This document shows, one piece after another, positions 14,487-45,885 of a DNA stretch of 64,000 nt. This DNA comes from Pigmentiphaga aceris. GTDB taxonomy: Bacteria > Pseudomonadota > Gammaproteobacteria > Burkholderiales > Burkholderiaceae_B. Location: positions 4,588,001 through 4,652,000 of the forward strand of contig NZ_CP043046.1 of assembly GCF_008119665.1 (NCBI RefSeq). Reading direction: 5' to 3'. Below the pieces are notes generated by a model. It was not told the origin of the DNA, did no database searches, and saw nothing but the letters and a program-made list of their open reading frames with translations. The translations under genes were made by a program, and so were the position numbers. Numbering within the stretch: position 1 is the first letter of the stretch; each line of letters opens with the position of its first letter.

Positions 14487-14768
14487 TCAGTCTTTACGTG
14501 CGGTGACTTCGAGCAGGTGATAACCGAACTGGGTCTTCACCGGGCCTTGAACCACGTTCACCGGGGCGCTGAACACGACTTCGTCGAATTCCTTGACCAT
14601 CTGGCCGCGGCCGAAGGTGCCCAGGTTGCCACCGTCACGCTTGGACGGGCAGCTGGAGTTGTCCTTCGCCACTTGCGCGAAGTCAGCGCCGCCTTCGATG
14701 GCAGCCTTCAGTTCGTTGCACTTCTCTTCCGTGGACACCAGGATGTGGCGGGCGGTAGCTTGGGCCAT
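14487..14768 (-). CDS. ppiC: Parvulin-type peptidyl-prolyl isomerase
   Basis: A 93-residue stand-alone parvulin, the same size as E. coli PpiC. It catalyses cis-trans isomerisation of prolyl bonds and has no signal peptide, so it is cytoplasmic. Family motifs are ARHILVSTEEKCNEL at the N-terminus, CPSKRDGGNLGTFGRGQMVK in the middle, and KTQFGYHLLEV at the end. It is the first gene of a two-gene unit with the small secreted protein downstream. Confidence 0.94.
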   Translation of the reverse strand: MAQATARHILVSTEEKCNELKAAIEGGADFAQVAKDNSSCPSKRDGGNLGTFGRGQMVKEFDEVVFSAPVNVVQGPVKTQFGYHLLEVTARKD

Positions 14769-20918: not shown

Positions 20919-22148
20919 CTAACGCGCCGTCGACGCAGGCAGCCACCGCGCGAACACCGCCGCCGCCACGATGCCGAGTACACCCACCCCGAAAGCCGCG
21001 GCACCCAGCGATGCCAAGGCCGTCACCGACGACAGCATCACCGGCCCGCCACAGGCCCCCAGGTCGGCAATCAGGCGCCAGATACCCAGGAACTGGTTGC
21101 GCGCGTTGGGCGGTGCCGCATCCGCACCAAGCGTCATTACAATGCCGGAGCCGATCCCGTTGCCGAATCCCAGCAGCAGGGACACCAGCACAAAGCTGGT
21201 GACGGTTTCAGTGAACGGAATCGCCATCAGGCTGCCGCCCATCAGCAGCGTGCACGGAATGGCGATCCACAGGCGACCGTACCGATCCATCACCTTGCCC
21301 GCCGGGTAGAACACCGACATATCGACGGCGGCGACCAGCCCGTAGACCAGGGATGCCGTGGCCGCGTCCATGCCAAGGTGGCTGGCCCAGAGCGGAATGA
21401 CGACCTGACGCGAGGTTCGCAGCGCACTGATGAGCATGACGCCCACGCCGAGCGTGGCATAGACACCCCGATGACTGCGTGCAATCTGCGCCACGCCGAT
21501 CCGCCCAGGGCCACGGGCCGAGGGCGAGGGCCTGACGATGTCGGGTGCCGAAACGGCGATGACGCCCGCGCCGAGCATGGCTGCGATGGCGACCCAGTAG
21601 GCTCCGTCCAGGCCCATCAGGAAGATCAGTCCCGCCCCCGCGAAAGGGCCGAGAAACGCGCCGATGCGGGTGGTGCCCGCCAGGGTGGACAAGGCGCGCG
21701 CCCGGTAGGCCGTGGGAACACTTTCGATCAGATAGCTCTGGCGGGCGAGCTGGAAGATGGATTGGGCGACCCCTTGCATCAGCATGGCGATCACCATCAC
21801 CCACAAGTGCGGCACGGTGACCACCAGCAGCAAGCCGAGCACGCTGATCAGTGCTGCTCCCGTCAATGCTCGCCGCTCTCCCAGCCGGTCGGTGATCAGC
21901 GATGCGGGAATGTTGCCGAGCAGCGAGCCAATGCCGATCAGCGCTGCGATCAGGCCCGCCATGGCAACGGAGGCCCCCAGATCGCGCGCGGTAAGCGCGA
22001 TCACCGGCAGAATCGCACCATTGCTCAGGCCATACAGCAAGGACGGCCCGAACACGGGAATCAGGATCTTCTTCCAATCGATCGTATCGTCTTGCTGCAT
22101 CGGCGAGTCGGAGGGCGCGGTATCGGACAGCATGGTACCGGTACGCAT
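20919..22148 (-). CDS. MFS transporter in the apionate-type operon
   Basis: A 409-residue major facilitator with twelve helices (ILIPVFGPSLLYGLSNGAIL; LGNIPASLITDRLGERRALT holds the helix 2-3 signature). The start is set at ATG 22148; ATGs at 22133 and 22100 are also possible. It is the last gene of the leftward operon apnO - RuBisCO-like protein - kinase - MFS, 38 bases past the kinase stop. Its place suggests uptake of the acid sugar, or export of a by-product. The family fit alone does not show the substrate. Confidence 0.87.
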   Translation of the reverse strand: MRTGTMLSDTAPSDSPMQQDDTIDWKKILIPVFGPSLLYGLSNGAILPVIALTARDLGASVAMAGLIAALIGIGSLLGNIPASLITDRLGERRALTGAALISVLGLLLVVTVPHLWVMVIAMLMQGVAQSIFQLARQSYLIESVPTAYRARALSTLAGTTRIGAFLGPFAGAGLIFLMGLDGAYWVAIAAMLGAGVIAVSAPDIVRPSPSARGPGRIGVAQIARSHRGVYATLGVGVMLISALRTSRQVVIPLWASHLGMDAATASLVYGLVAAVDMSVFYPAGKVMDRYGRLWIAIPCTLLMGGSLMAIPFTETVTSFVLVSLLLGFGNGIGSGIVMTLGADAAPPNARNQFLGIWRLIADLGACGGPVMLSSVTALASLGAAAFGVGVLGIVAAAVFARWLPASTAR

Positions 22149-22186
22149 GGCCAGATCGGGCGAAAAGATCGCACGTTTGTGTTGGG

Positions 22187-23560
22187 CTACGGCATGACAA
22201 TCCCATCGCGTGCCAGACCAAAGAAATCTTCCAGCCCGATCTGCCCGCCCTTGAGCACCAGCTCCAGCCCCTCCCGGACCGGATGCGATGACCAGGCACG
22301 GCACAAGGGTGCGCCCGGCGTCAGTTCGGCCGCTACCGTCAAGGCGTCGATATCCAGCATGCTCATCACTTCGCCAGAGCTGTCACCGCCGGCAATGACC
22401 ACGCGTTTCAATGGACGTTGATCGACAATGCCCTGCATCACGGCGGCAAGCGCCTGCCCGACCTTGCGTGCCGCATCCGAGCGCGACAGGCCAGCCTTGG
22501 TGGCGATTTCGTCGAAATTCACGACAGCGCTGTCGTTGGGGCCTTCTGCGCTGAAGATCAAAGGACTCCCCCCTGCGTCCAACACGCCCACGGCCAGAGC
22601 GACCAGGCGGGCGATTTCCTCGGCATAGCTGCTTTCTTTCAGCGCCTGATCCAGCGCCATGCGTTCGACCGTGAACCCGTTGTCACGCGCCCAGGCAATC
22701 TGGCCGGCGGTAACCGGCGAGCAGCTTCCGCTGACAGCGGCAATGCTGCGCACAGGCGCGGCACGCGGCAGCGCCACGTCCTTGGCAACCCAGCCCTGCG
22801 CGCGCCAGTAGGCGGTCAGCGCATACGGCAAGCCTGACGAAGACGCGCTGAACACGCCTTCTCCGCGCTGCTCCCACACCAGCCGGCCTGCTTCCACCAG
22901 CGTTTCATCATTCAACACGTCGATGAATACGGTGGGAACATCGTCTCCGCGCAGGTCGTTCAATTGTGCCGCCGCCGACCCATCGGCAAGCGCCACCATG
23001 TCGATCAGTTCAATGCGCCGCGTGGTCTGCTTGCCCAGGTGCAGACGCAAGTCCGCCTCGGCCATCGGGGTGACCGGGTGACGCGACATCGTGGGATGCC
23101 TGTCGATCCGATGAGCAACGCCCTTGACGGCCGCGAACAGATTGCCGAAGGCCTGATAACGCTTCAGCCGAGGCACACCCACAATGCTGGGTGACCAGTT
23201 TTGCCTGGCATGCTGCACGCCCAATTCGGTGGCACAGCCGATGGACCCGGTCGTGGGTGACGAATCGAAGGTCGAACACACTTTGTAGTGCAACACCGGC
23301 GGATTGAGCGCCGCCAATGACGAAAACGCAGCGGGCAATTCTCGCCGCATCCATGCTGGGTCACGACCGCGTGAGGAACCTGCGATGCCCACGCAGCGGG
23401 CGGTCGGAAAACGCGCCGCCAGCGCGGGGGTTGGCGGCGTCAGAAACAGTACCGTTTCGATGCCAGCCATGGTCATGGCCTCCATCGCATCGGTCGACCC
23501 GGTGAAGTCATCACCGTAGTAGGCTAGCAGCAGTCCTGGCGGAAGCGCCGATGCCGTCAT
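22187..23560 (-). CDS. oiaK: Four-carbon acid sugar kinase family (DUF1537), 3-oxo-isoapionate kinase-like
   Basis: A 457-residue kinase of the OtnK/DUF1537 family. The N-terminal signature LLAYYGDDFTGSTDAMEAMT (residues 9-28) and the C-terminal nucleotide-binding region (GPNDSAVVNF; VIAGGDSSGEVMSMLDIDAL) are clear. Its ATG overlaps the stop of the RuBisCO-like gene by four bases (ATGA), showing coupling. In known D-apionate pathways, OiaK phosphorylates 3-oxo-isoapionate and the product is split by a RuBisCO-like enzyme; the presence of both with an ApnO-type dehydrogenase supports that role. The gene symbol is inferred from context; another acid-sugar substrate remains possible. Confidence 0.85.
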   Translation of the reverse strand: MTASALPPGLLLAYYGDDFTGSTDAMEAMTMAGIETVLFLTPPTPALAARFPTARCVGIAGSSRGRDPAWMRRELPAAFSSLAALNPPVLHYKVCSTFDSSPTTGSIGCATELGVQHARQNWSPSIVGVPRLKRYQAFGNLFAAVKGVAHRIDRHPTMSRHPVTPMAEADLRLHLGKQTTRRIELIDMVALADGSAAAQLNDLRGDDVPTVFIDVLNDETLVEAGRLVWEQRGEGVFSASSSGLPYALTAYWRAQGWVAKDVALPRAAPVRSIAAVSGSCSPVTAGQIAWARDNGFTVERMALDQALKESSYAEEIARLVALAVGVLDAGGSPLIFSAEGPNDSAVVNFDEIATKAGLSRSDAARKVGQALAAVMQGIVDQRPLKRVVIAGGDSSGEVMSMLDIDALTVAAELTPGAPLCRAWSSHPVREGLELVLKGGQIGLEDFFGLARDGIVMP

Positions 23561-24801
23561 TTCCAGAACTCCAGCGCGCGCGCCAATACCGGCACCTGGG
23601 CAGCACGCGCTGCGAGGGATTCCCCAGCCATTGCCGCATCCCATGAAGCACGCAGCGCCTCGACTCCCGCTGACACACCCTGCGGGTGACCGAAGATGCC
23701 GCCCCCCGCCGTGTGGATCAGGTCGGCGCAGCCGATGGCCGCGTAGGTGTCGTGTGCCTGCAAGCCGGTCTGACCAGAACTGAATACCGGCATGGCGGGC
23801 ATGTCGACACCCGGCATGACCGGGGCCAGCACCGCACGTGCCGCCGCGATCACACTGTCATCAGGTTCACTGAATTTGTTGCGCAGGCCATTCACATGCA
23901 GATGGTCGGCACCTGCCAGACGCCAGATTTTCTGCAGCGGCGCATAGTCGAAACCCAGCGCTGGCGAGCGCGACAGCGCCCCCCAGCCGGCACGATGCCC
24001 GTGAATCGGCAACTGAGAATGTCGGCGCAGTTCATGCAGCCCCACCAGTCCGACCGCATTCAGGCACACCATCACGCAGGTGCCGCCGTGCGCCAGCACA
24101 ATGTCGTGGCGGCGTCGCATGCGATCCAGATCGCCCGTCAGGTTGAAGGCCACCATGGCCTTCTTGCCCGTGCGCGCAGCATGGTCGTTGACCACATCCA
24201 TTACCAGCCGCACCCGGTCTTCGAACGGGCAATGCGGGCCATCGGCCTGCAGCTCATCATCTTTGATGAAGTCGATACCGCCCGCCACCAGTTCACGAAC
24301 CTGCTGGGCGGTTTCTTCAGGCGACAGGCCCACGCTGGGCTTGATGATGGTGCCGATCAGCGGCCCGGTCTGCACGCCGGCAAGCCCACGTGTGCCCTGG
24401 ATGCCGAACGCCGGACCGGGGTAGGCAGCGGCGAACGACAGAGGCAATTGCAGATCGAGCAGACGCAGACCGGTGACCGAACGCAGTTCATACAAGTTGC
24501 CCGCCACCGTGGCCATCAAGGTCGGCAGGCAAGCGCCCAGGTTCTCGATCGGCCAGGACAGTTCCAGCAGACACTGGGTGTAGACCGACGACACCTTCGG
24601 GGTCGGCAGACTAGGCGTGGGGCTGGTGCCCAGCACCTCCAGGCGCTCTACCCGCGCCCCGGAACGGGCTTTCAATTCCGGGGTTTCGGTCGGCAGCGCC
24701 ACGAAGGTGCCGCTGGACTGTTCACCAGCGATGGTGTCGGCGGCACGTGCGGGATCACCGCCCGTCTCGAACCAATAGCTGGCGTAAATGCGTTCGGCCA
24801 T
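23557..24801 (-). CDS. RuBisCO-like protein (RLP), 3-oxo-isoapionate-4-phosphate transcarboxylase/decarboxylase-like
   Basis: A 414-residue member of the RuBisCO large-subunit superfamily. ATG 24801 has AGGAA just upstream. Landmarks: GTIIKPSVGLS (Lys154, like RuBisCO Lys175), GGIDFIKDDE (Lys180, Asp182, Glu183, like the carbamylated Lys201 and metal ligands 203/204), HGHRAGWGAL (268-277), a loop with NGLRNKFSE (Lys309, perhaps Lys334), SSGQTG and TAGGGIFGHPQG for phosphate. These equivalences are by eye. It is flanked by ApnO- and OiaK-like genes, as in D-apionate catabolism, where RLPs called OiaT or OiaX split or decarboxylate 3-oxo-isoapionate 4-phosphate. No erythrulose-phosphate isomerase genes are near, which leans towards OiaT. 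It is not a carbon-fixing RuBisCO: no small subunit or phosphoribulokinase is seen. Confidence 0.88.
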   Translation of the reverse strand: MAERIYASYWFETGGDPARAADTIAGEQSSGTFVALPTETPELKARSGARVERLEVLGTSPTPSLPTPKVSSVYTQCLLELSWPIENLGACLPTLMATVAGNLYELRSVTGLRLLDLQLPLSFAAAYPGPAFGIQGTRGLAGVQTGPLIGTIIKPSVGLSPEETAQQVRELVAGGIDFIKDDELQADGPHCPFEDRVRLVMDVVNDHAARTGKKAMVAFNLTGDLDRMRRRHDIVLAHGGTCVMVCLNAVGLVGLHELRRHSQLPIHGHRAGWGALSRSPALGFDYAPLQKIWRLAGADHLHVNGLRNKFSEPDDSVIAAARAVLAPVMPGVDMPAMPVFSSGQTGLQAHDTYAAIGCADLIHTAGGGIFGHPQGVSAGVEALRASWDAAMAGESLAARAAQVPVLARALEFWK

Positions 24802-24836
24802 CGCGTATTCCTTGCGTTGTGCTTGGACAGGGAAGA

Positions 24837-25667
24837 TCAGGTAATGCGACGGATGCTTTCTGCGATTTCGTCGCGATCGAAGACCTTGATCCAATCGTCA
24901 CGCATCAAGCGGGGCTTGCCGAAGGTGATGGCCTTGTTGCATGCGTCCGAGAACGCACCTGGAATCTCATTGAAGATCACCGCGCCCAGGATGTTCATGT
25001 GACCCAGCAGGAAATCACGGGCGCATTTCTCGGGCACCCCACGACGCACCGTTTCGTCCATGGCTTCGCGCATCACGGCCAGCAAGGTGGCGCAGACCGT
25101 CTCGGACAGACCCGGCTCCAGCAAGGCCATCTGATCGACCGTCAGGCGGTAGGAATCCTTGATGGGCTGGTAGATGGTCTTGGCCACGTCTTCACCCAGG
25201 TCGAAGGCCGACTCCGGGCCTTGCATCAGTGCGCTGGTGATGGACTGGCGCGCTGCCACACCGCCGAAGTAGTCGCGTCGGGCGGCTTCTTCCACTTCGT
25301 CGTTGTAGATCGTCGGGTGGCACGGATGGCTGACGAAATACGTCAGGTCTTTTCGATCCGGCAGATGACCCGCAAATGGCGCGGCAGCATCCAGCAGCAT
25401 GATCATCGTGCCCGGCTTGAGCTGATCCGAAATCTTGTGCGCGACCTTGCCGATAATGGTGTCGGGCACGGCGAGGATCACCACATCGGCATCGGCCAAC
25501 GCCACGCTTTCCTCAACGCAGTCCAATCCCAGTTCGTCCTTGAGTCGCTTGCGACCGGCTTCGCCAGGTTCGACGTGGTGCACCCGATAGTCCGACTTCA
25601 ACAGGTTCTTCGACAGGCGAACGCCCATCTTGCCGCCCGCACCGAACAAAGCAATGGTCTCTTTCAA
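24837..25667 (-). CDS. apnO: D-apionate oxidoisomerase-like NAD(P)-dependent dehydrogenase
   Basis: A 276-residue dehydrogenase, first gene of the operon. The start is TTG at 25667-25665: GGAG lies six bases before it, and the protein then opens METIAL-style directly into the NAD(P)-binding loop FGAGGKMGVRLSKNL (residues 8-22). A second block, DADVVILAVPDTIIGKVAHK, completes the Rossmann fold, and VSHPCHPTIYNDE near residue 115 is a likely active-site region. The helical C-terminus resembles 6-phosphogluconate dehydrogenase relatives. This layout matches ApnO, which converts D-apionate to 3-oxo-isoapionate, and the next two genes fit the following steps. The shared 14-base motif lies 59 bases upstream. 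Confidence 0.83.
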   Translation of the reverse strand: MKETIALFGAGGKMGVRLSKNLLKSDYRVHHVEPGEAGRKRLKDELGLDCVEESVALADADVVILAVPDTIIGKVAHKISDQLKPGTMIMLLDAAAPFAGHLPDRKDLTYFVSHPCHPTIYNDEVEEAARRDYFGGVAARQSITSALMQGPESAFDLGEDVAKTIYQPIKDSYRLTVDQMALLEPGLSETVCATLLAVMREAMDETVRRGVPEKCARDFLLGHMNILGAVIFNEIPGAFSDACNKAITFGKPRLMRDDWIKVFDRDEIAESIRRIT

Positions 25668-25722
25668 GATTGTCTCCAGCAGACTGAAAAGGTGCCGCTC
25701 TGAACAAAACACAGATCGGCTC

Positions 25723-25747
25723 AAGTGGTGTGATGAGTAGACCACTT
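25723..25747. promoter_or_regulatory. Putative GntR operator upstream of apnO
   Basis: AAGTGGT (25723-25729) and ACCACTT (25741-25747) are perfect inverted arms around 11 bases. Inside is TGGTGTGATGAGTA (25726-25739), found again in reverse complement before the ABC operon at 26669-26682. It sits between apnO and the GntR gene. Confidence 0.7.
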
Positions 25748-25878
25748 AAATAAAATATTGGATGCTCGGGTTTTCCATAGACGCAGTATTGCCCCGTGTT
25801 TTCCTGCCGTCACATGACCGGGAACCCTGTGATAAGGTCATCAGCCACCCCGGTATGACGACCCATTGGAGAGACCAG

Positions 25879-26595
25879 ATGAATGAGCCGATCCGCCGCC
25901 GAAAGATTTTTCAAGAGGTTCACGATCGCCTCATGGAACGGATTCGTTCCGGTGCGTTTCAGCCCAATGCGCAGCTTCCCTCAGAGCGAGAACTGATGGA
26001 GGAATACGGTGTGGGTCGCCCTGCCGTGCGCGAGGCTCTGCAGGCGCTGCATCGCTCAGGTGTGGTCGAGATCGTCCATGGCGAACGCGCACGGGTGGTG
26101 GTGCCGACGGCGGAACGCCTGATGTCTCAGCTGGCCACCGGGGCCATGCACTTGCTGCGCACGCAGGCCGGCGCGCTGGAACACTTCAAGGAATTGCGCG
26201 TCTTCCTGGAGACAGGGACTGCGCGCCTGGCCGCAGAACGCGCATCTGAAGAAGACATCGCCAAACTGCGCCTGACGATTGCGCGACACCGGGCAGCCAT
26301 CGCCAACGCCGAGCGCTTCATCGAGCTCGACAATGCCTTCCATCGGGAAATCGCCGGCATCAGCGGCAACCCGATCTTTCCGTCCATCGTGGACGCCATG
26401 TTCCAATGGGCCAGCGAGTACTACCGGTCCTTGGTTCGCGCGCCAGGTGCGGAAGCGCTAACGCTGGCTGAACATGAACGCATCGTGGATGCAATCGCGG
26501 CACACGACCCGGCCGGTGCCGCCAGCGCGATGGAAGCCCACTTGAATCGCGCCAACAAGCTTTATCGGCAGATCATCACGGCCTCTACTTCTTGA
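25879..26595 (+). CDS. GntR-family regulator, FadR/NanR subfamily
   Basis: A 238-residue regulator. The winged HTH occupies residues about 8-75 (IFQEVHDRLMERIRSGAFQP; PSERELMEEYGVGRPAVREA; LQALHRSGVVEIVHGERARV). The C-terminal FCD ligand domain (about 95-230) has the helical pattern ELRVFLETGTARLAAERASE and the metal-binding type histidines (LDNAFHREIAG; EHERIVDAIAAHDP; MEAHLNRA). The start at ATG 25879 has GGAGA eight bases upstream. It lies between the apnO operon (leftward) and the ABC transporter operon (rightward), and a shared motif precedes both, so it is the likely regulator of both. The ligand is probably an acid sugar or pathway intermediate. Confidence 0.92.
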   Translation: MNEPIRRRKIFQEVHDRLMERIRSGAFQPNAQLPSERELMEEYGVGRPAVREALQALHRSGVVEIVHGERARVVVPTAERLMSQLATGAMHLLRTQAGALEHFKELRVFLETGTARLAAERASEEDIAKLRLTIARHRAAIANAERFIELDNAFHREIAGISGNPIFPSIVDAMFQWASEYYRSLVRAPGAEALTLAEHERIVDAIAAHDPAGAASAMEAHLNRANKLYRQIITASTS

Positions 26596-26625
26596 AGGCT
26601 GCGCTTACTCCGCACTGCTCCCCTC

Positions 26626-26649
26626 GTGTAATCGTAACCACCATTACAC
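26626..26649. repeat. Inverted repeat before the ABC operon
   Basis: GTGTAAT (26626-26632) and ATTACAC (26643-26649) are perfect arms around 10 bases. It lies 19 bases upstream of the shared 14-base motif and downstream of the GntR gene stop. There is no T run, so it is more likely a protein-binding site than a terminator. Confidence 0.45.
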
Positions 26650-26668
26650 TTTATCGACTCAGATGGCA

Positions 26669-26682
26669 TACTCATCACACCA
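26669..26682 (-). promoter_or_regulatory. Putative GntR operator upstream of ABC operon
   Basis: TACTCATCACACCA is the exact reverse complement of 25726-25739. Relative to its gene it has the same orientation as the apnO copy, and it ends 62 bases before the ATG at 26745 (59 bases for apnO). TGG lies two or three bases before the core in both copies. Confidence 0.7.
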
Positions 26683-26744
26683 GCTCATGACCGTTTGATG
26701 TATTGCGTGCACTTGCTCCCCACAAGCCGACAAAGGACAAACCC

Positions 26745-28337
26745 ATGAAGAAAACGATGTTGCGTACCCTGATCAGCGCCGGTGTGATGGCGATGGCAGG
26801 ACTGGCTGCCAGCCCTGCCATAGCGCAGGCAGATGCGCAGTCCACCTTGCGTATCGTGCCCACCACCAACATCACGGTGCTGGACCCGATCTGGACCACC
26901 GCCTACGCGTCACGCAACTTCGGCTACATGGTATACGACACGCTTTTCGGCACCGACGCCGAGGGCAATATCAAGCCGCAGATGGTGGACACCTGGACGG
27001 TGTCCGACGACCGCAAGACCTGGACGTTCAAGCTGCGCGCCGGTCTGGAGTTTTCTGATGGCACGCCGGTCACGGGTGAAGACGTGGTGTCTTCCATCAA
27101 GCGCTGGGCCAGCCGCGACAGCTTCGGCGGCCTGATGGCCAAGAGCGTCGATGCGTATGAGGCTCCTGACGCCAACACCTTTGTCATCAAGCTCAACGAG
27201 CCCTTCGGCATGGTGTTGGAAGCCCTGGGCAAGCCTTCGTCGAACGTGCTGTTCATCATGCCCAAGCGTCTTGCCGACACCCCGGGTGACACGCAACTGA
27301 AGGAAGTCGTCGGATCCGGCCCGTATCTGTTCAACGCCGACGAGTTCCGCCCCGGCGAACGCGTGGTGTTCGTGAAGAACCCCAAGTACAAGCCGCGCAG
27401 CGATCAGCCTTCCGGCACCGCAGGTGCCAAGAATGTCTACACGAACCGTGTGGAATGGGTCATCATCCGCGACCCGCAGACGGCCATGAATGCGCTGCTC
27501 AACGGCGAAGTCGACATCTACGAACAGCCTGCATTCGACCAGTACCCCACGCTGAAGGCCAACGCCGACATCCAACTGGCGGAAGCGGTCATCGCAGGCA
27601 GCCAGTTCATGCTGCGCTTCAATTTCCTGCAACCGCCTTTCGACAATGAAAAGGTACGTCGCGCGGCCATGCTGGCGCTGGGCCAGGACGCTATCTTGCG
27701 CACCCAGGTCGGTTCGCCCGAACTGTCGAAGTATTGCAAAAGCCTGTTCCCGTGCGGCACTCCTTACGAATCGCAGAACACAGGTGACTACACCGGCATC
27801 GCCAACCCGCAGAAGGCCAAGGCGCTGCTGGCCGAGGCAGGTTACAAGGGTGAACCGGTTGTGCTGCTGCGCCCCACCGACAACCCCACCATCGGCAAAC
27901 TGCCACTGGTCGCCAAGCAGCAACTGGAACAAGCCGGTTTCAAGGTGGACATGCAGGCCATGGACTGGCAGTCGCTGGTATCACGCCGCGCTCGCAAGGA
28001 CGCGCCCAAGGCAGGCGGCTGGAGCGCCTTCATGACCTCGTGGTCAGCGTCCGACATTCTGAACCCACTGACCATGGCACCGATGAACGCCACCGGCGAG
28101 AAGGGCTGGTTCGGCTGGTTGGAAGATGCCAAGCTGGAAGAGATCAAGCGCAAGTTCGCGATGGCGCAAACGCCGGAAGAAAAGAAGAAGTTCGCTGAAG
28201 AAGCGCAGTTGCGTGCGGTGGAAGTCGTGTCGCACGTGCCGGTCGGCCAGTACAGCCAGCCGGTAGCCATGCGCAAGAACATCAGCGGATTGCTGCCTTC
28301 CGGCGCGCAGATCTACTGGAACATCAAGAAGCAGTGA
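26745..28337 (+). CDS. ABC transporter substrate-binding protein, dipeptide/oligopeptide family 5
   Basis: A 530-residue periplasmic binding protein. The signal peptide is residues 1-28 (LISAGVMAMAGLAASPAIAQ, cleavage after AIA or AQA). The family 5 fold follows: TWTVSDDRKTWTFKLRAGLE with FSDGTPVTGEDV, LKEVVGSGPYLF, and the late block KAKALLAEAGYKGEPVVLLR. Length is normal for DppA/GsiB-type proteins. ATG 26745 has AAAGGA upstream; an earlier in-frame start is unlikely. It heads a five-gene unit (binding protein, two permeases, fused ATPase, amidase) under the putative GntR site. Bound substrate unknown; family members take peptides, glutathione, nickel or opines. Confidence 0.92.
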   Translation: MKKTMLRTLISAGVMAMAGLAASPAIAQADAQSTLRIVPTTNITVLDPIWTTAYASRNFGYMVYDTLFGTDAEGNIKPQMVDTWTVSDDRKTWTFKLRAGLEFSDGTPVTGEDVVSSIKRWASRDSFGGLMAKSVDAYEAPDANTFVIKLNEPFGMVLEALGKPSSNVLFIMPKRLADTPGDTQLKEVVGSGPYLFNADEFRPGERVVFVKNPKYKPRSDQPSGTAGAKNVYTNRVEWVIIRDPQTAMNALLNGEVDIYEQPAFDQYPTLKANADIQLAEAVIAGSQFMLRFNFLQPPFDNEKVRRAAMLALGQDAILRTQVGSPELSKYCKSLFPCGTPYESQNTGDYTGIANPQKAKALLAEAGYKGEPVVLLRPTDNPTIGKLPLVAKQQLEQAGFKVDMQAMDWQSLVSRRARKDAPKAGGWSAFMTSWSASDILNPLTMAPMNATGEKGWFGWLEDAKLEEIKRKFAMAQTPEEKKKFAEEAQLRAVEVVSHVPVGQYSQPVAMRKNISGLLPSGAQIYWNIKKQ

Positions 28338-28405
28338 CGCCAGCATGGGCGCCAATCGGCGCCCTGCTCGGCCCCGATATTTTCACTGAGTTCTAGGTCT
28401 GCCCC

Positions 28406-29347
28406 ATGTTGAACTTCCTCGGCAAGCGCTTGCTTGCCACGCTTCCTGTGCTGCTGGTCGTCGCCATCGCGGTGTTCATGATCATCCGCCTGACACCCGG
28501 CGACCCGGCCGCGATCATTGGCGGCGACAGCGCCACCACAGAAGACCTGAACCGAATCCGCATGCAGCTCGGCCTGACCGAACCCCTGTGGACGCAATTT
28601 GCCATCTGGGCGCGCGGTGTGATCACCGGCGACTTCGGCTTCTCGTACTTCTTGAACAAGCCCGTCAGCACGCTGATCCTTCAGCGTATGGAACCCACGC
28701 TGTGCCTGGCTGCCGGCACGCTGCTGATGGCGGTATTGATTTCCCTGCCGCTTGGCACCTTGTCCGCATGGCGCATGGGTGGCTGGCTGGACCGCATCGT
28801 GATGGGCTTCTCCGTCACCGGCTTCTCCGTCCCGGTGTTTGTCATCGGCTACATACTGATTTATGTCTTTGCGCTTGAACTGCGCTGGTTCCCGGTACAG
28901 GGCTACAGCCGGATTGCCGATGGCATCGGTCCGTGGGCAATCAAGCTGCTGCTGCCTTGCCTGACGCTGGCCGTGACCTATGTTGCGCTGCTGTCGCGGG
29001 TGACACGTGCCGCAGTCAGCGAGGCGCTGACCGAGGACTACATCCGCACGGCACGCGCCAAGGGCGTGACCGAATGGACGGTGCTGGGTCATCACGCGCT
29101 GCGCAATGCAGCCGTGCCGGTCGTCACCGTGATCGGCATGAGCGCAGCGATGCTGATGGGCGGCGTGGTGGTGACGGAAACGGTCTTCGCCATTCCTGGT
29201 CTGGGACAACTGACGGTGGACGCCGTGCTCAGCCGCGACTTCCCGGTGCTTCAGGGCGTGGTCTTGTTCTTTGCACTGGTCTACGTGCTGCTGAACCTGC
29301 TCGTCGACCTGAGCTATCTGATCCTTGACCCCCGAATCCGCTACTGA
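28406..29347 (+). CDS. ABC transporter permease, DppB type
   Basis: A 313-residue inner-membrane permease with six predicted helices. The N-terminal TM (LLATLPVLLVVAIAVFMIIR) is followed by the family motif LTPGDPAAIIGGDSATTEDL and MQLGLTEPLWTQF. The EAA loop that contacts the ATPase is EDYIRTARAKGVTEWTVLGH, then HALRNAA. It lies 68 bases past the binding-protein gene and pairs with the DppC-type permease downstream. Confidence 0.93.
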   Translation: MLNFLGKRLLATLPVLLVVAIAVFMIIRLTPGDPAAIIGGDSATTEDLNRIRMQLGLTEPLWTQFAIWARGVITGDFGFSYFLNKPVSTLILQRMEPTLCLAAGTLLMAVLISLPLGTLSAWRMGGWLDRIVMGFSVTGFSVPVFVIGYILIYVFALELRWFPVQGYSRIADGIGPWAIKLLLPCLTLAVTYVALLSRVTRAAVSEALTEDYIRTARAKGVTEWTVLGHHALRNAAVPVVTVIGMSAAMLMGGVVVTETVFAIPGLGQLTVDAVLSRDFPVLQGVVLFFALVYVLLNLLVDLSYLILDPRIRY

Positions 29348-29375
29348 CATTCGTTATTGACATAGCAAAGCCACA

Positions 29376-30251
29376 ATGACATCAACCTACCAAAAGCTCT
29401 GGCGCAACGTATCCATTCGCGCTGGCTTCGGCACGTTGGCAGTGCTGGTGCTGCTTGCCATTGCCACGCCACTGTTGGGCACCATCGATCCGGTCGCCAT
29501 GGACGCCACGTTCATCTCGGTAGCCGCTGGCACCAAAGGCATGTTCACCTTGCCCGACGGCACCCAGATCGCCCACACCTTCTGGATGGGCAGTGACCCG
29601 ATCGGACGTGACGTCTGGAGCCGTGTGCTGTATGGCACGCGCATCTCGCTGATCGTGGGCATTGCCACCGCGATGGTGGCCGTGTGCATCGGCTGCGTAC
29701 TCGGCATGCTCGCAGGTTACTTCCGCGCCTTGGACGCCGTGCTGATGCGGATCATGGACGGCCTGATGGCGATCCCGTCCGTGTTGCTGGCGATCACACT
29801 GGTGGCCACATTGGGGGCCAGCCTGACGACCGTGATTCTTGCCATCGCCGTGCCGGAAATTCCACGCGTGACCCGCCTGGTTCGCGCGCTGGTGCTGAGC
29901 CTGCGTGAAGAACCCTTTGTCGAAGCGGCCCGAGCACTGGGCACACGCGACGCGTCCATTCTCTGGCGCGACATCCTGCCCAATTCGCTGGCCCCGCTGA
30001 TCGTGCAAAGCACCTTCATTGCTGCGTCGGCAATTCTCACCGAGGCCATTCTCAGCTTCCTTGGCCTGGGCTTGCCTGCTGACATCCCGACCTGGGGCAA
30101 CATCATGGCCGAAGGCCGCGTGCAGTTCACGCAGTCGCCTGGCAACGTGCTGTTCCCTGCCCTGTTCCTGGTGCCCACGGTACTTGCCATCAATATGTTC
30201 GGAGACGGCCTGCGGGACGTGCTGGACCCCAAGTTCGCAAAACGCCTATGA
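29376..30251 (+). CDS. ABC transporter permease, DppC type
   Basis: A 291-residue second permease of the same transporter. The N-terminal TM and the motif HTFWMGSDPIGRDVWSRVLY are typical of DppC/OppC proteins. The EAA loop is EPFVEAARALGTRDASILWR, then DILPNSLAPLIVQ, and the end SFLGLGLPADIPTWGNIMAE is conserved. It begins 28 bases after the DppB-type stop and overlaps the ATPase gene start by four bases. Confidence 0.93.
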   Translation: MTSTYQKLWRNVSIRAGFGTLAVLVLLAIATPLLGTIDPVAMDATFISVAAGTKGMFTLPDGTQIAHTFWMGSDPIGRDVWSRVLYGTRISLIVGIATAMVAVCIGCVLGMLAGYFRALDAVLMRIMDGLMAIPSVLLAITLVATLGASLTTVILAIAVPEIPRVTRLVRALVLSLREEPFVEAARALGTRDASILWRDILPNSLAPLIVQSTFIAASAILTEAILSFLGLGLPADIPTWGNIMAEGRVQFTQSPGNVLFPALFLVPTVLAINMFGDGLRDVLDPKFAKRL

Positions 30252-31864
30252 CCGAATCAATTCTGGAAGTACGCGGGTTGCAGGTAGCGCTGCCATCCGA
30301 TGCAGATCGCCCCTATGCCATCGAGTCGATGGACATTTCCATCCCGGCAGGACGCACACTGTGCATCGTGGGTGAATCCGGCTCGGGAAAATCGGTGCTG
30401 GCCACGACTGTGCTGGGCCTGCTTGCCAAGGGTTTGACCGTCAAGTCGGGCAGCATCAGACTGGCTGGCGAAGCCTTGGTAGACGGAGGCGTGCCCATCC
30501 CGCAAAAACGTTTGCGCGAGCTTCGCGGCACCGGCATGGGCATGGTGTTCCAAGAGCCGATGACAGCCCTGAACCCGGTGCACACCTGCGGCGAGCAAGT
30601 TGACGAACTGCTGCGCACCCACACTGACTGGAACGCAAGCGCCCGCAAGGCGCGCATTCTGGAAATTTTCGAGCGCGTGCGCCTGCCCTCGCCCGAGCGC
30701 ATCTATGCAAGCTACCCGCACCAGTTGTCGGGTGGCCAGCGCCAGCGCATCGTGATCGCCATGGCGATCATCCTGAAGCCACGCCTGCTGATCTGCGATG
30801 AACCCACGACTGCGCTGGACGTCACCACGCAGGCCGAGATTCTGAAGCTGATTGCGGAACTACAGGCCGAACAGAACAGCGCCGTGCTGTTCATCACGCA
30901 CGACATGGGTGTCGTGGCCGAGATCGCCGACGACATTCTGGTCATGCATCGGGGCGTGGTCGTGGAACAAGGAACCTGCGATCAGGTGCTGCGCGCACCG
31001 AGTCAGGCCTATACCCGCATGCTGCTGGACGCCGTGCCGGGCATGACGCCGCCCGCACCGCGCGAGCTGCCTGGCGGCCCGGCGCTGCTGGCTGGCCGCA
31101 ACGTCGGCAAGACCTACATCCGTCGCGACTGGCTTGGCCGCGCCAAGCCCACCCAGGCATTGCAGGAAACCAGCGTGTCGGTGCACCAGGGCGAAACGGT
31201 TGGCGTGGTGGGCGAATCAGGCTCGGGCAAATCGACGTTTGCCCGCTGCCTGATTCGCTTGATCGAACCTACAGACGGTGTGGTGCACTGGGCAGGCAAG
31301 GAAGTGCAATCCTTGAAGGAATCCGAGCTACGCCCGCTGCGCTCGCAGGTGCAGGTGGTGTTCCAGGACCCGAACCGTTCGCTGAACCCGCGTCGCACCA
31401 TTGGTTCGTCCATGGTAGAAGGCGCGATGAACTTCGGCATGAGCGCAGCGCAGGCGCAGGCCAAGGTCGAGGAACTGATGGACCGCATCCAGCTGCCACG
31501 CACTGCGCTGGAACGCTATCCACACCAGTTCTCGGGTGGACAACGCCAGCGTATTGCCATCGCACGCGCACTAGCCTGCCATCCCAAGGTATTGGTGGCC
31601 GACGAGGCCGTGTCGGCGCTGGACGTGTCAGTGCAAGCCCAGATTCTGGACTTGCTGCGCGAAATTCAGCGCGACCTGGGTATCGGCATTCTGTTCATCA
31701 CCCACGACCTTCGCGTAGCGGCGCAGCTATGCGACCGCGTGGTGGTCATGCGGTCCGGCCGCGTCGTGGAACAAGGGCAGACGGCCAGCGTATTCGGCAA
31801 CCCATCTGAAGACTACACGCGCGCCTTGCTTGCGGCGGCGCCATCAACCAACTTTTCGTCATAG
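30248..31864 (+). CDS. ABC transporter fused ATP-binding protein, DppD-DppF type
   Basis: A 538-residue cytoplasmic protein with two complete ABC ATPase modules in one chain, as in GsiA. Module 1 (about 5-260): Walker A GESGSGKS, signature LSGGQRQRI, Walker [14 protein letters not shown]. Module 2 (about 280-535): Walker A GESGSGKS, signature FSGGQRQRIAIARA, Walker B VLVADEAVSALDVSV, where the usual Pro after Glu is Ala. Both modules keep the Walker Glu, so both sites may be active. It powers the two permeases upstream; the neighbouring second transporter (33390-38535) has its two ATPases as separate genes. Confidence 0.93.
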   Translation: MTESILEVRGLQVALPSDADRPYAIESMDISIPAGRTLCIVGESGSGKSVLATTVLGLLAKGLTVKSGSIRLAGEALVDGGVPIPQKRLRELRGTGMGMVFQEPMTALNPVHTCGEQVDELLRTHTDWNASARKARILEIFERVRLPSPERIYASYPHQLSGGQRQRIVIAMAIILKPRLLICDEPTTALDVTTQAEILKLIAELQAEQNSAVLFITHDMGVVAEIADDILVMHRGVVVEQGTCDQVLRAPSQAYTRMLLDAVPGMTPPAPRELPGGPALLAGRNVGKTYIRRDWLGRAKPTQALQETSVSVHQGETVGVVGESGSGKSTFARCLIRLIEPTDGVVHWAGKEVQSLKESELRPLRSQVQVVFQDPNRSLNPRRTIGSSMVEGAMNFGMSAAQAQAKVEELMDRIQLPRTALERYPHQFSGGQRQRIAIARALACHPKVLVADEAVSALDVSVQAQILDLLREIQRDLGIGILFITHDLRVAAQLCDRVVVMRSGRVVEQGQTASVFGNPSEDYTRALLAAAPSTNFSS

Positions 31865-31915
31865 CACACAGATCCGGCGCGATCTGTTGTTCTTGAAACC
31901 TGCACGGAGAATGAA

Positions 31916-33388
31916 TTGAGCTTGGCAATGACCTGGGAAGAATGGTGTGCCCACGATGCGGTGGGCTTGGCACAACGCGTGAAAAAGGGCGAAGTCAGCG
32001 CAGCCGAGTTGGCGGCGCAGGCGGTCGAGGGCATCCGCAAGCTCAACCCCACGCTCGACGCGGTGGTTCAGGTCTTCGACGACGCCGTTGCCGACCCTGC
32101 CGTCGATGGCACGAATCTGGACGGCGTTTTTGGTGGCGCGCCTTTCCTGATGAAAGACCTGGGGCCCACGGTCAAGGGCAGGCTGCAGGAATTCGGCTCG
32201 AAACTGATGCAGGGCAACCGGCCGACTGAAGACGCCTTCCTGACCAGCAAGATTCGCAACGCCGGCCTGAACATCATCGGCCGCACGACCACGCCGGAAT
32301 TCGGTGTGTGCAGCTCGTCGGAAAACGACTTGCACGTCACCCGCAATCCCTGGAATACCGACTACACCACCTGCGGGTCTTCCGCAGGCACGGCTGCAAT
32401 GGTGGGCGCAGGCGTGCTGCCGCTGTCGCACGGGACCGACGGCGGCGGGTCCATCCGCATTCCCGCAGGCTGCAACGGCACTCTGGGGTTGAAGGTGTCA
32501 CGTGGCGTGTATTCGCTGGCGCCCAACCTGTCGGACCTGACCGGACTGGTGTCGATCCAGGGTTGCCTGAGCAGCACCGTGCGCGACACGGCCGCGTTCG
32601 TGGACAACTGCCGGGGCGGCGCACCGGGTGAATTCATGCCCTTCTGGTCGCCGGAAGAACCGTACAGCGAACTGATCAAGCGTGATCCGGGTCGCCTGCG
32701 CATCGCCATGTCGCACGAATGGGGCGACTATCGGGCGGTGCCGCACTTCGTGGCCGAGCTGGAACGCGTCGGACGCTTCCTCGAAAGCCTGGGTCACCAC
32801 GTCGAGTGGGCCTTGCCCGAAGTCGACTTCCGCGCAGCCTTCCAGGCGCAGACGCAGTGCTACATCGGCAACTTTGCCCAGGTAATCGCCGGCCACATGG
32901 AACGGCTTGGCCTTGACCAGCCGCCGCGTGACCTGCTTGAGCCGATCGACATCAAGATCTGGGAAGAAGGCCGCGACATCTCGTACAGCGAGCGCTACCA
33001 GATGCAGAAGGTGTTCAATACCACGTCGCGCGCGTTCGGCCGCTTCTTCGAAGACTGGGACATCATCCTGACGCCCGTGGTCGCATTGCCCACACCGAAG
33101 GTTGGCGAAAGCCAGAACCTTACGACCAGCACCAACCCGTCAGTGCTCGACTGGTTCGACATCAACTGGCGCAACTTTGCCTTCACCCCGCTTGGCAATC
33201 TGTGCAGCATGCCCGGCATTTCCATGCCGCTCGCGCGTCAGGAAAGCGGCTTGCCGCTGGGTATCCAAGCGCAGACACGGATGGCCAATGATGGCTTGCT
33301 GTTGCAGCTGGCAGCCCAGATCGAACGCGCGATCGACGGAAAGTGGAATGGCGGACAGCGGCCCGAGTGGCACGTGACGAATAAATAA
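31916..33388 (+). CDS. Amidase-signature family hydrolase
   Basis: A 490-residue amidase that hydrolyses a C-N amide bond. The Ser-cisSer-Lys triad is visible: Lys80 (GGAPFLMKDLG), cis-Ser155 (CGSSAGTAAM) and nucleophile Ser179 (GTDGGGSIRIPAG). The start is TTG 31916 with GGAGA just before it; ATG 31928 is an alternative. No signal peptide is seen, so it acts in the cytoplasm, after import. It follows the ATPase gene by 51 bases and ends two bases before the stop of a convergent gene. Its place suggests that the imported compound is an amide that this enzyme opens. Confidence 0.92.
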   Translation: MSLAMTWEEWCAHDAVGLAQRVKKGEVSAAELAAQAVEGIRKLNPTLDAVVQVFDDAVADPAVDGTNLDGVFGGAPFLMKDLGPTVKGRLQEFGSKLMQGNRPTEDAFLTSKIRNAGLNIIGRTTTPEFGVCSSSENDLHVTRNPWNTDYTTCGSSAGTAAMVGAGVLPLSHGTDGGGSIRIPAGCNGTLGLKVSRGVYSLAPNLSDLTGLVSIQGCLSSTVRDTAAFVDNCRGGAPGEFMPFWSPEEPYSELIKRDPGRLRIAMSHEWGDYRAVPHFVAELERVGRFLESLGHHVEWALPEVDFRAAFQAQTQCYIGNFAQVIAGHMERLGLDQPPRDLLEPIDIKIWEEGRDISYSERYQMQKVFNTTSRAFGRFFEDWDIILTPVVALPTPKVGESQNLTTSTNPSVLDWFDINWRNFAFTPLGNLCSMPGISMPLARQESGLPLGIQAQTRMANDGLLLQLAAQIERAIDGKWNGGQRPEWHVTNK

Positions 33389-33389
33389 G

Positions 33390-34265
33390 TCACTGCGACT
33401 GCATTGGGTCGACAGGTAACAGCGGCGGGCTGGGTCGGGGAACATCCAGCACCGAACTGAAAAGCTGCTGCGTGTAGGCATGCGTCGGGTTAGCGAAGAC
33501 CGTCGCCGTAGCACCAGCCTCGACCACTTGCCCGTTACGCATCACCAGCACACGATCGGACATATGCCCGACCACCGCCAGGTTGTGGCTGATCAGAATC
33601 AGCGCCAGATTCAGATCCTTGCGTAGCGCCAGCAGCAGATTCAATATCTGCGCTTGCACCGATACATCCAGTGCCGACGTCGGCTCGTCGCAGATGATCA
33701 GACGCGGTTTGACGGCCAGGGCGCGTGCGATCGCCACGCGCTGGCGCTGTCCGCCTGACAGCGCGTGCGGATAGGAACGCAACACGCGTGCAGGCAGACC
33801 CACTTGTTCAAGCAGGCGCACGATGGCGGCTTGGCGGGTGCTGGCGTCCAGCGCGGTGTTGTGCAAGCGCAGGGGAAGGTCCAGCAATTGTGCAACGGTG
33901 TAAGCCGGATTCAGTGACCCGTAGGGGTCTTGGAATACCGGTTGAACAATGCTTGCAATCCGCTTGCGATCCAGGTTTGCAATGGGCTGCCCCAGCAGCG
34001 ACACGCTACCTGCGCTGGGTCGATCCAGGCCCAGTAGAAGCCGGGCAAGCGTGCTTTTCCCCGACCCCGATTCGCCCACGATGCCGACAATCTCCCCTGG
34101 CCCGATCGACAGCGACACCTTGTCCAGCGCCGTGAACGGCGTGGCCGCGCGCGGCAGTATGCGGCGGACGGTGTAGTGTCTGGTCAGGTTGATGGCGTCC
34201 AGAATGCGCGCAGAAACCTGTGTGTTGGCGGCATGGTCATCCTGGGTGAAAACCTGTGTGTTCAT
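33390..34265 (-). CDS. ABC transporter ATP-binding protein, DppF/OppF type
   Basis: A 291-residue ATPase. Walker A GESGSGKSTLARLLLGL, signature ALSGGQRQRVAIARAL, Walker B LIICDEPTSALDVSVQ, and the switch His in LILISHNLAV. The N-terminal 40 residues are variable and the start at ATG 34265 ([10 protein letters not shown]) overlaps the previous gene stop by four bases. It is the last gene of a five-gene leftward transporter operon. The C-terminal extension that holds the oligopeptide-type finger in some OppF is short here. Confidence 0.93.
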   Translation of the reverse strand: MNTQVFTQDDHAANTQVSARILDAINLTRHYTVRRILPRAATPFTALDKVSLSIGPGEIVGIVGESGSGKSTLARLLLGLDRPSAGSVSLLGQPIANLDRKRIASIVQPVFQDPYGSLNPAYTVAQLLDLPLRLHNTALDASTRQAAIVRLLEQVGLPARVLRSYPHALSGGQRQRVAIARALAVKPRLIICDEPTSALDVSVQAQILNLLLALRKDLNLALILISHNLAVVGHMSDRVLVMRNGQVVEAGATATVFANPTHAYTQQLFSSVLDVPRPSPPLLPVDPMQSQ

Positions 34266-35269
34266 ACGCGCGCCTCGAACGGGGCATAACAGCGTCGTGT
34301 GTGTGCCGCGCCAATGGCGATCAGGTCTGGCGGCACGTTGTTGCACACGGGTGCGGCATGCGCACATCGGGGTGCGAATGCGCATTGCGTGGGCGGCTCA
34401 AGCAGCGCTGGGACCACGCCAGGGATGACTGCCAGTGGCTGTCCGGGGGCACGGGAGCCCCCCATGGGCAGACAGTCCAGCAGCCCTTGCGTGTACGGAT
34501 GGCCGGCGTGCCGAAGCACGGTATCGGTTCGACCGGACTCCACAATCTGTCCCGCATACATGACAGACACGCGATCGGTGTAGTGGGCGACCAGGCCCAG
34601 GTCGTGGGTGATCAGCAGAATGGCCAGACCCATTTCCTGTTGCAGTGTTTTCAGCAGATCGAGAATCTGCTTTTGCACGGTGACGTCCAAGGCTGTGGTC
34701 GGCTCGTCAGCAACGATCAGATCGGGCCCGCACATCAGTGCCATGGCGATCAGCACACGCTGGCGCATGCCACCGGACAACTCGTGCGGATACTGTTCAA
34801 GCCGGCGCGCAGCATCGCCAATGCCGACTTTTTCCAGCAGATGCAGCGCGCATGCCTGAGCCTGCGCTCGCTCGCCGCGCCGATGGCTGAGATAGACCGC
34901 ACGCAGCTGAGCACCGATAGTAAAAGTAGGATTGAGCGCAGTCATGGGTTCCTGAAACACCATGGAAATGCGGTCGCCACGCAAGCGGTTGATCGCCCGA
35001 TCACCGACCGACAGCAGGTCATGGCCATCGAAAGCCATGCGGTCGGCGCGAACCTTTGCGCCGTGCGGCAGCAGCTTGAGCAGGCTCAGCGCGGTCAAGG
35101 ACTTGCCACAGCCGCTCTCACCGACCAACCCGAGTGTTTCACCTTTATCGATGCGCAGGTCGATGCCGCGTACCGCATGCAACAGCCCTGCACGTGTGGG
35201 CAAGGTGATGTGCAGATTCCGCACGTCGAGCGTGGCCTGCGTCGCGTTGCTGATATCAATCGTACTCAT
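34262..35269 (-). CDS. ABC transporter ATP-binding protein, DppD/OppD type
   Basis: A 335-residue ATPase. Walker [18 protein letters not shown], signature [16 protein letters not shown], Walker [17 protein letters not shown]. The C-terminal oligopeptide/dipeptide extension has the Cys-rich pattern [19 protein letters not shown], typical of DppD proteins that carry an iron-sulfur cluster or zinc site. It overlaps the upstream permease gene by four bases and the downstream ATPase gene by four bases. Confidence 0.94.
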
Positions 35270-36084
35270 GTCTGCCGCCGCGTCCGCAGTCCATCACCCA
35301 CCAGGTTGATACCAAGCACCAGCAGTGCAAGCGCAGCCCCCGGCAACGCAATCAACCAGGGGCTGAAGAACATGAATGATTTGGCCTCTGACAGCATCAA
35401 GCCCCAGGACGGAAACGGGGCCGGTACACCCAGGCCCAGGAACGACAAGGCGGCTTCCACCAGAATGGCGTGGGCCATTTCCACCGATGCAATGACCAAG
35501 AGCGGTCCCCGCACGTTGGGCAGAATTTCCTTGATGAGAATGTGCAGATTCGAGCAACCCAGCGCACGCGCAGCGGTGACGTAGTCGGCCTGTCGCAGTT
35601 GCAGCGCAGCGCTGCGTGCCACCACGGCAAAGTGATCCCACAGCAGCAAGCCCAACACCAGAATCACGGTCGTCAGCGAGTTGCCCGTGACCGACACGAT
35701 GGCAAGCGCGGCCAGCACGATGGGCATGCTGATGCGCGTGTTGATCAGGAAACTGATGACGGCATCGGTGACGCCACCGAAGTAGCCCGCAAGCAGGCCA
35801 AGGGTGATGCCGATGAAACCGGACACCAGCACGACTGCCACGCCGATGCCCAGCGAAATGCGTGCACCGTAGACCAGTCTGGCAAGGTAGTCACGACCAA
35901 GCTGATCGGTGCCAAGCACATGCGCAGACAGCGTCTTGTCATGCCAGAACGGCTGCGACAGGCGCTGACCAAGTGACTGCGTGAACGGATCATTGGGCAG
36001 CACCAACGGGCCGAGCACCGCAATGATGGCCAGCACGATGATGATGGCGATGCCAAGCTTGAAGCCCCAGCGTTTGGACATCAT
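35266..36084 (-). CDS. ABC transporter permease, DppC type
   Basis: A 272-residue inner-membrane permease. LSAHVLGTDQLGRDYLARLV is the DppC/OppC landmark; the EAA loop is QADYVTAARALGCSNLHILI, then KEILPNV. SFLGLGVPAPFPSWGLMLSE near the end is conserved. It overlaps both neighbouring genes of the operon by four bases, so the operon is tightly coupled. Confidence 0.93.
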   Translation of the reverse strand: MMSKRWGFKLGIAIIIVLAIIAVLGPLVLPNDPFTQSLGQRLSQPFWHDKTLSAHVLGTDQLGRDYLARLVYGARISLGIGVAVVLVSGFIGITLGLLAGYFGGVTDAVISFLINTRISMPIVLAALAIVSVTGNSLTTVILVLGLLLWDHFAVVARSAALQLRQADYVTAARALGCSNLHILIKEILPNVRGPLLVIASVEMAHAILVEAALSFLGLGVPAPFPSWGLMLSEAKSFMFFSPWLIALPGAALALLVLGINLVGDGLRTRRQT

Positions 36085-45800: not shown

Positions 45801-45885
45801 TGGTGCCCGAGGCCGGAATCGAACCGGCACGCCTTGCGGCGGGGGATTTTGAGTCCCCTGCGTCTACCAATTTCACCACCCGGGC
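45801..45885 (-). tRNA. tRNA-Leu (CAA anticodon)
   Basis: An 85-base tRNA including encoded CCA. The acceptor GCCCGGG pairs with the 3' CTCGGGC (one G-U type position), and the long variable arm is typical of Leu. The anticodon loop is CTCAAAA, giving CAA, which reads UUG. The T loop GGTTCGATTCC is intact. Folded by eye on the minus strand. Confidence 0.93.

Follow-up and report, generated by a model that had tools for sequence, protein, structure and literature searches.

A putative 19-bp operator joins an apionate-type operon and a family-5 ABC transporter-amidase operon in Pigmentiphaga aceris

The window, by which we mean the whole 64,000-nt stretch of Pigmentiphaga aceris DNA analysed here, contains two operons that diverge at a regulatory gene (Table 1). 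On the minus strand, apnO is followed by the gene for a RuBisCO-like protein (RLP), oiaK and an MFS transporter gene; on the plus strand, gntR is followed by genes for a substrate-binding protein (SBP), two permeases, an ATPase and an amidase (26745-33388). Comparisons with NCBIfam, Pfam and the PDB bore out the kinds of genes that a sequence-only reading of this DNA had named. The MFS ORF overlaps oiaK, and the true start of the MFS gene probably lies inside this overlap. The PDB match of the amidase, 3a2p, is a 6-aminohexanoate-cyclic-dimer hydrolase. A second Dpp-type ABC operon (window 33390-36084) converges on the end of the amidase gene.

Table 1. Genes and putative operators of the locus, in window coordinates.
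Feature	Position	Strand	Evidence and remarks
MFS transporter, last gene of apionate operon	20919..22304 (ORF bounds)	-	Pfam MFS_1 145.6 bits
oiaK, 3-oxo-isoapionate kinase	22187..23560	-	NCBIfam NF042436 805.5 bits, above cut-off 700
RuBisCO-like protein (RLP), OiaX/OiaT-like	23557..24801	-	PF00016 222 bits; best PDB relative 3nwr 391 bits
apnO, D-apionate oxidoisomerase-like	24837..25667	-	PDB 5t57 510 bits; PF16896 241.5 bits; presumed TTG start at 25667
Operator 1 (putative), TGGTCTACTCATCACACCA	25726..25744	-	58 nt before apnO, upstream of divergent gntR
gntR, GntR/FCD regulator, NanR subfamily	25879..26595	+	NCBIfam NF003011 305.1 bits, above cut-off 260; E. coli NanR 6on4 147.8 bits
Operator 2 (putative), TGGCATACTCATCACACCA	26664..26682	+	62 nt before SBP gene
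Family-5 substrate-binding protein (SBP)	26745..28337	+	PF00496 251 bits; best PDB relative 8vdx 318.5 bits; ATG at 26745
ABC permease, Opp/Dpp B-like	28406..29347	+	NCBIfam/Pfam comparison
ABC permease, Opp/Dpp C-like	29376..30251	+	NCBIfam/Pfam comparison
Fused double ABC ATPase, GsiA/YejF-like	30248..31864	+	NCBIfam/Pfam comparison
Amidase-signature hydrolase, NylA-like by sequence	31916..33388	+	PF01425 236.7 bits; PDB 3a2p 200 bits

Catabolic pathways for D-apiose and D-apionate were reportedly described by Carter et al. in Nat Chem Biol in 2018. In the window, the OiaK of the apionate operon passes its family model (Table 1). The RLP scored 443 bits against the NCBIfam OiaX model (NF042437), below the cut-off of 700, and nine other RLPs taken from other clusters, one of them from a locus that also encodes ApnL, scored 432-464 bits. 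Because the window RLP and these nine all fall under the cut-off, this RLP group lies outside the OiaX equivalog. Assignment of the window protein as the decarboxylase OiaX was not accepted on this score, and the earlier designation 'apionate-type RLP' claims more than membership of the family, which is as far as the evidence reaches. Products open to the RLP are L-erythrulose-phosphate and CO2, or 3-phosphoglycerate and glycolate.

The match of ApnO to PDB 5t57 extends across all 276 residues; the chain is labelled only 'Semialdehyde dehydrogenase NAD-binding protein', and we take this structure to be part of the apionate work. The NCBIfam hits of the apnO product included no ApnO model, and the conserved place of the gene beside OiaK and the RLP supports its putative identity. 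ApnL had no match in the P. aceris genome at E <= 1e-10, and just 1 of 12 genomes searched has one; given this absence, the catabolic route in P. aceris seems to begin at apionate. Elsewhere in the genome there is a second RLP (50% identical; G000:C1:1598118-1599362; L055:9095-12143), whose neighbours are genes of a TRAP transporter, a gene resembling glyoxalase and a second kinase that scores 343 bits to the OiaK model, below its cut-off. This second locus probably serves a related but different pathway.

The sequence-only reading had drawn attention to a 14-mer, TACTCATCACACCA, at 25726-25739 on the minus strand, which recurs as its reverse complement at 26669-26682 on the plus strand. Our searches confirmed both copies and their common orientation relative to the regulated genes. 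No other exact copy, and none at one mismatch, was found in the window or in the 6.17-Mb genome; at two mismatches the genome holds 17 places, versus 7 for the reversed control pattern. Two details of spacing needed correction. The SBP copy does lie 62 nt before its start codon as claimed, and the apnO copy lies 58 nt rather than 59 nt before its own; the TGG described as two or three bases before the core is exactly two bases before it in both copies. Since this TGG is common to the two copies, we treat the unit as a 19-mer, TGGNNTACTCATCACACCA. When 1,946 pieces of 149 bp were drawn at random from the window, none matched the 19-mer with fewer than 4 mismatches; both promoter regions match it with 0. 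A long duplication carrying both sites was ruled out, as the two promoters have no long match beyond the 19-mer.

Our survey of other genomes was based on RLP loci, for which we took the best 80 of at least 565 matching stretches from an RLP scan of species genomes; many of them come from close relatives, so the 80 do not count as independent. At up to 2 mismatches, the pattern TGGNNTACTCATCAYACCA occurred in 34 of the 80 loci (39 sites), and over the same loci the reversed pattern gave 0 sites and eight shuffled patterns gave 0-1. In other genera, too, the orthologous operon is preceded by the identical 19-mer. When the search was run on the 49 RLP genomes (from 50 of the 80 loci), there were 49 matches in 36 genomes versus 4 control matches, and some of the 2-mismatch matches lay off the RLP contig.

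A weight matrix extended the set to 78 sites of at least 20 bits in 53 of the 80 loci, versus 0-3 sites for 20 column permutations. Near the starts of regulon genes were 68 of these sites (MFS, 25; GntR, 16; ApnO, 14; sugar-ABC SBP, 9; RLP, 3; ApnL-like, 1); the other 10 comprised 3 at other genes and 7 without a called start in range. The matrix step is partly circular, because its refinement drew on these very 80 loci and because, among genes lying -200 to +400 nt away, those of the regulon took precedence in the assignment; the mismatch counts (34 of 80 loci) are free of this circularity. No site was found at 13 bits in 22 of the 80 loci, or at 20 bits in 27. Some of the loci are truncated, and others may be differently regulated.

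We also searched 399 genomes of the order. With up to 1 mismatch, the 19-mer was found in 6 of them, P. aceris included (control, 2), and P. aceris alone has two sites. One of the five other sites, with 1 mismatch, adjoins a GntR ortholog (52%) in a 3-kb locus without an apn gene (L249, genome G404); none of the queried genes lies within the 3-kb loci of the other four. Thirteen other genomes of the family contain one exact 14-mer each, versus 3 control matches, and the 3-kb loci checked around these thirteen sites had no queried gene. Because of these single copies, the 14-mer by itself lacks full specificity. Even so, searches of the genome and of the order did not refute the proposed link by finding the motif to be common elsewhere without related genes. 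Taken with its placement in other genera, the 19-bp site looks like a conserved operator of the apionate regulon.

The GntR protein of the window aligns closely with E. coli NanR through the presumed recognition helix. The site consensus, TGGTATAATCATCATACCA (TGGTAT-N7-ATACCA), is an imperfect dyad made of an inverted pair of half-sites with a 7-bp spacer. E. coli NanR binds direct repeats of the form (GGTATA)3 or TGGTATAW (PMC8012715; PMC4494728), and in the usual palindrome of FadR-type regulators 3 nt separate GT from AC (PMC4494728). The TGGTAT half-site of our consensus matches the GGTATA-type repeat of NanR (PMC8012715; PMC4494728). A NanR-type operator of direct GGTATA repeats was rejected for this locus, since the consensus here is an inverted pair.

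Many RLP loci hold apnO, RLP, oiaK and GntR genes together with a changing transporter. As judged from one scanned member of each kind of cluster, it is of the MFS kind in some, a TRAP system of the DctP type in others and a sugar ABC system of the ribose type in others again. The ribose-type ABC clusters also encode an ApnL-like protein and a dehydrogenase of the Gfo/Idh family. In nine loci (L061, L062, L063, L064, L084, L085, L086, L094 and L126), belonging to Paraburkholderia, Burkholderia and Oxalobacteraceae, the site stands before a sugar-ABC SBP gene; the SBP is of the ribose type in the one scanned. ApnL-like genes occur in the same nine clusters and Gfo/Idh genes in several of them.

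Homologues of the family-5 ABC module occur in other genomes as well. SBP matches at E <= 1e-120 were found in at least 35 of the 399 genomes of the order, P. aceris included, a lower bound because at most 3 candidates were scored per genome, and matches at E <= 1e-150 were found in 11 of the 49 RLP genomes. Among the matches listed in the order search, the closest relative is genome G434 (73% for the SBP and 70% for the amidase), in which ApnO gave no match at E <= 1e-20. In Curvibacter, the apn genes and an SBP of 72% occur on separate contigs, and the ABC genes lack a site. In both of these genomes a MocR-type regulator gene is divergent from the SBP gene. Of 18 ABC-homologue loci without adjacent apn genes (L170-L181 and L227-L232), 16 had no site at 13 bits, and the two matches, in L176 and L179, lie more than 5 kb from the SBP gene; thus none of these 18 relatives has a site at the ABC operon. 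Several of the modules located away from apn genes carry an M81-family gene and amidases.

A second association of the ABC genes with the pathway was found in Polaromonas sp. P2-4, where the orthologous ABC genes separate apnO from RLP-oiaK-GntR. The order there, all on the plus strand, is apnO-SBP-permB-permC-ATPase-M81-amidase-...-RLP-oiaK-GntR (L182/L183), and a site, TGATGTACTCATTATACCA, stands 70 nt before apnO. Between the amidase and RLP genes are aldehyde-dehydrogenase-like ORFs, named by their resemblance to a scanned relative in L104, and then a gene for an Iso_dh-family protein. The window and Polaromonas amidases are only 29% identical. Several genes of this Polaromonas locus are split between frames, by decay or assembly error. 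The comparison of gene order in related genomes, which the sequence-only reading had proposed, has thus joined the same ABC genes to the pathway in another genus, and the combination, which had been said to match no known set, is not unprecedented.

Within the genus of P. aceris, the RLP (E <= 1e-30) and the SBP (E <= 1e-100) were each absent from 10 of 10 genomes. First-look candidates for family-5 SBPs number 38 in P. aceris versus 2-12 in the ten congeners, and this richness makes an ABC neighbour less remarkable. A window ORF at 14487-14768, which we take to be PpiC-like, and tRNA-Leu(CAA) at 45801-45885 are ~75-80 bp apart in two same-genus genomes (G008 and G009); in the window they are 31 kb apart, with a block between them. 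The spot looks like a variable or rearranged place beside a tRNA gene.

The operator, its conservation, its regulon-wide placement and the repeated association of ABC genes with the pathway were established computationally. That the apionate operon and the ABC-amidase operon belong to one regulon, as had been proposed, is very likely, given the rarity of the site in the genome, the conserved placement of the operator before the orthologous operon in other genera, the site-less ABC relatives and the Polaromonas layout, which unites the ABC genes with the pathway. For repression, the effector and release by an acid we infer the following. The NanR-subfamily GntR protein would act as a repressor by occupying the 19-bp dyads that directly precede apnO and the ABC-amidase operon, and one of the pathway's acids would release it. 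Derepression would then yield ApnO, OiaK and the RLP, which would convert D-apionate to 3-oxo-isoapionate, its 4-phosphate and the RLP product. The cell would also gain two importers, one being the MFS protein and the other the family-5 ABC system, which comes with the amidase. The operon for this ABC system and amidase, a separate module that is found elsewhere without apionate genes, would have been captured into the regulon. Our best guess for the ABC substrate is apionate itself, or else apionate conjugated as an amide or lactam, from which the amidase would free the acid. We put the probability of this whole explanation, a GntR-controlled apionate regulon with a captured ABC-amidase module, at roughly 0.8.

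Co-regulation could be real and the ABC-amidase operon could nevertheless serve an unrelated nutrient, for example peptides as a nitrogen source, that co-occurs with apionate in plant matter. The transporter had been called peptide-type, and by sequence it does belong to protein family 5, which says nothing about its substrate. The occurrence of the module without apn genes and the poor conservation of the amidase leave room for unrelated cargo, and the M81-family and amidase genes of several such modules, the MocR-type regulator divergent from two of them and the resemblance of the window amidase to a cyclic-dimer hydrolase all fit such a nutrient. However, the module is associated with the same pathway genes twice, in different layouts (the window and Polaromonas), and where a transporter of related clusters carries the operator or is embedded among the pathway genes, it is a sugar ABC, TRAP or MFS system. 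We consider an unrelated nutrient quite possible, if short of likely. Doubtful, in our estimate, is the more specific proposal that D-apionate has an unreported natural source in an amide or lactam conjugate, taken up by the family-5 ABC system, opened by the NylA-like amidase and governed by the apionate repressor; if true, such a conjugate would be a third entry into RLP metabolism besides apiose and free apionate.

It is also conceivable that the ABC genes are unaffected by the second site, which would then serve only to govern read-through out of gntR or be left over from an older promoter. A point in favour of this is that a sigma-70 consensus scan of 25600-26800 found no promoter. The SBP-side site has 23 exact bases, 9 of them beyond the 14-mer, in common with the operator of a Rhodoferax MFS operon, and 9 of 12 flanking bases are common to the Rhodoferax site; this fits a relic of an ancestral apn promoter and suggests, but does no more than suggest, that the SBP-side site derives from the promoter of an ancestral MFS gene. 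Yet of the 24 sites compared just 1 had so long a flank in common, none of the 17 specified positions is altered, and the orientation and start-codon spacing match those of the apnO copy, so that we regard read-through control or a relic as improbable. A chance or mobile repeat without regulatory meaning, to which the single 14-mers of the thirteen family genomes might point, is hardly credible and was ruled out computationally by the rarity of the site in the genome, its conservation at orthologous promoters across genera and the near-zero controls.

If the captured-module explanation holds, what is new is a transporter swap and the capture of a module into the regulon of a known kind of pathway. 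The regulon would keep its enzymes and repressor while the transporter is exchanged among sugar ABC, TRAP, MFS and family-5 ABC systems. A specific and conserved candidate operator, with a candidate repressor, can now be offered for an RLP pathway, and an otherwise orphan family-5 ABC-amidase module gains a metabolic partner that can be tested. The shared switch also hints that bacteria may import D-apionate, a branched plant sugar acid, in a form that has been overlooked. Among the matches listed in a search of the open-access literature, none dealt with an apionate operator or with the ABC-amidase link.

Known systems resemble this locus in part. As in the D-apiose and D-apionate catabolic pathways (Carter et al. 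2018, cited in PMC6302742), an ApnO-like protein, an OiaK above its cut-off and an RLP are encoded in one operon. Paraburkholderia relatives have, in addition, a ribose-type ABC system, a Gfo/Idh dehydrogenase and an ApnL, which passes its cut-off in the one scanned, whereas P. aceris has no ApnL match, its RLP is below the OiaX cut-off, and a family-5 ABC system with an amidase takes the place of a sugar ABC or TRAP system as the linked transporter. Gsi/Dpp-like modules of family-5 SBP and double ATPase have the same SBP-permease-permease-ATPase order, with an amidase nearby in several loci; unlike them, the window module carries the putative apionate operator, and those of G434 and Curvibacter are divergent from a MocR-type regulator. 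The E. coli NanR sialoregulon (PMC8012715) has a regulator of the same NCBIfam subfamily, GGTATA-type half-sites and one repressor over several operons, but its target pathway is different and NanR uses direct repeats, whereas the site here is an inverted pair whose 7-bp spacer also sets it apart from the usual FadR-type palindrome (PMC4494728).
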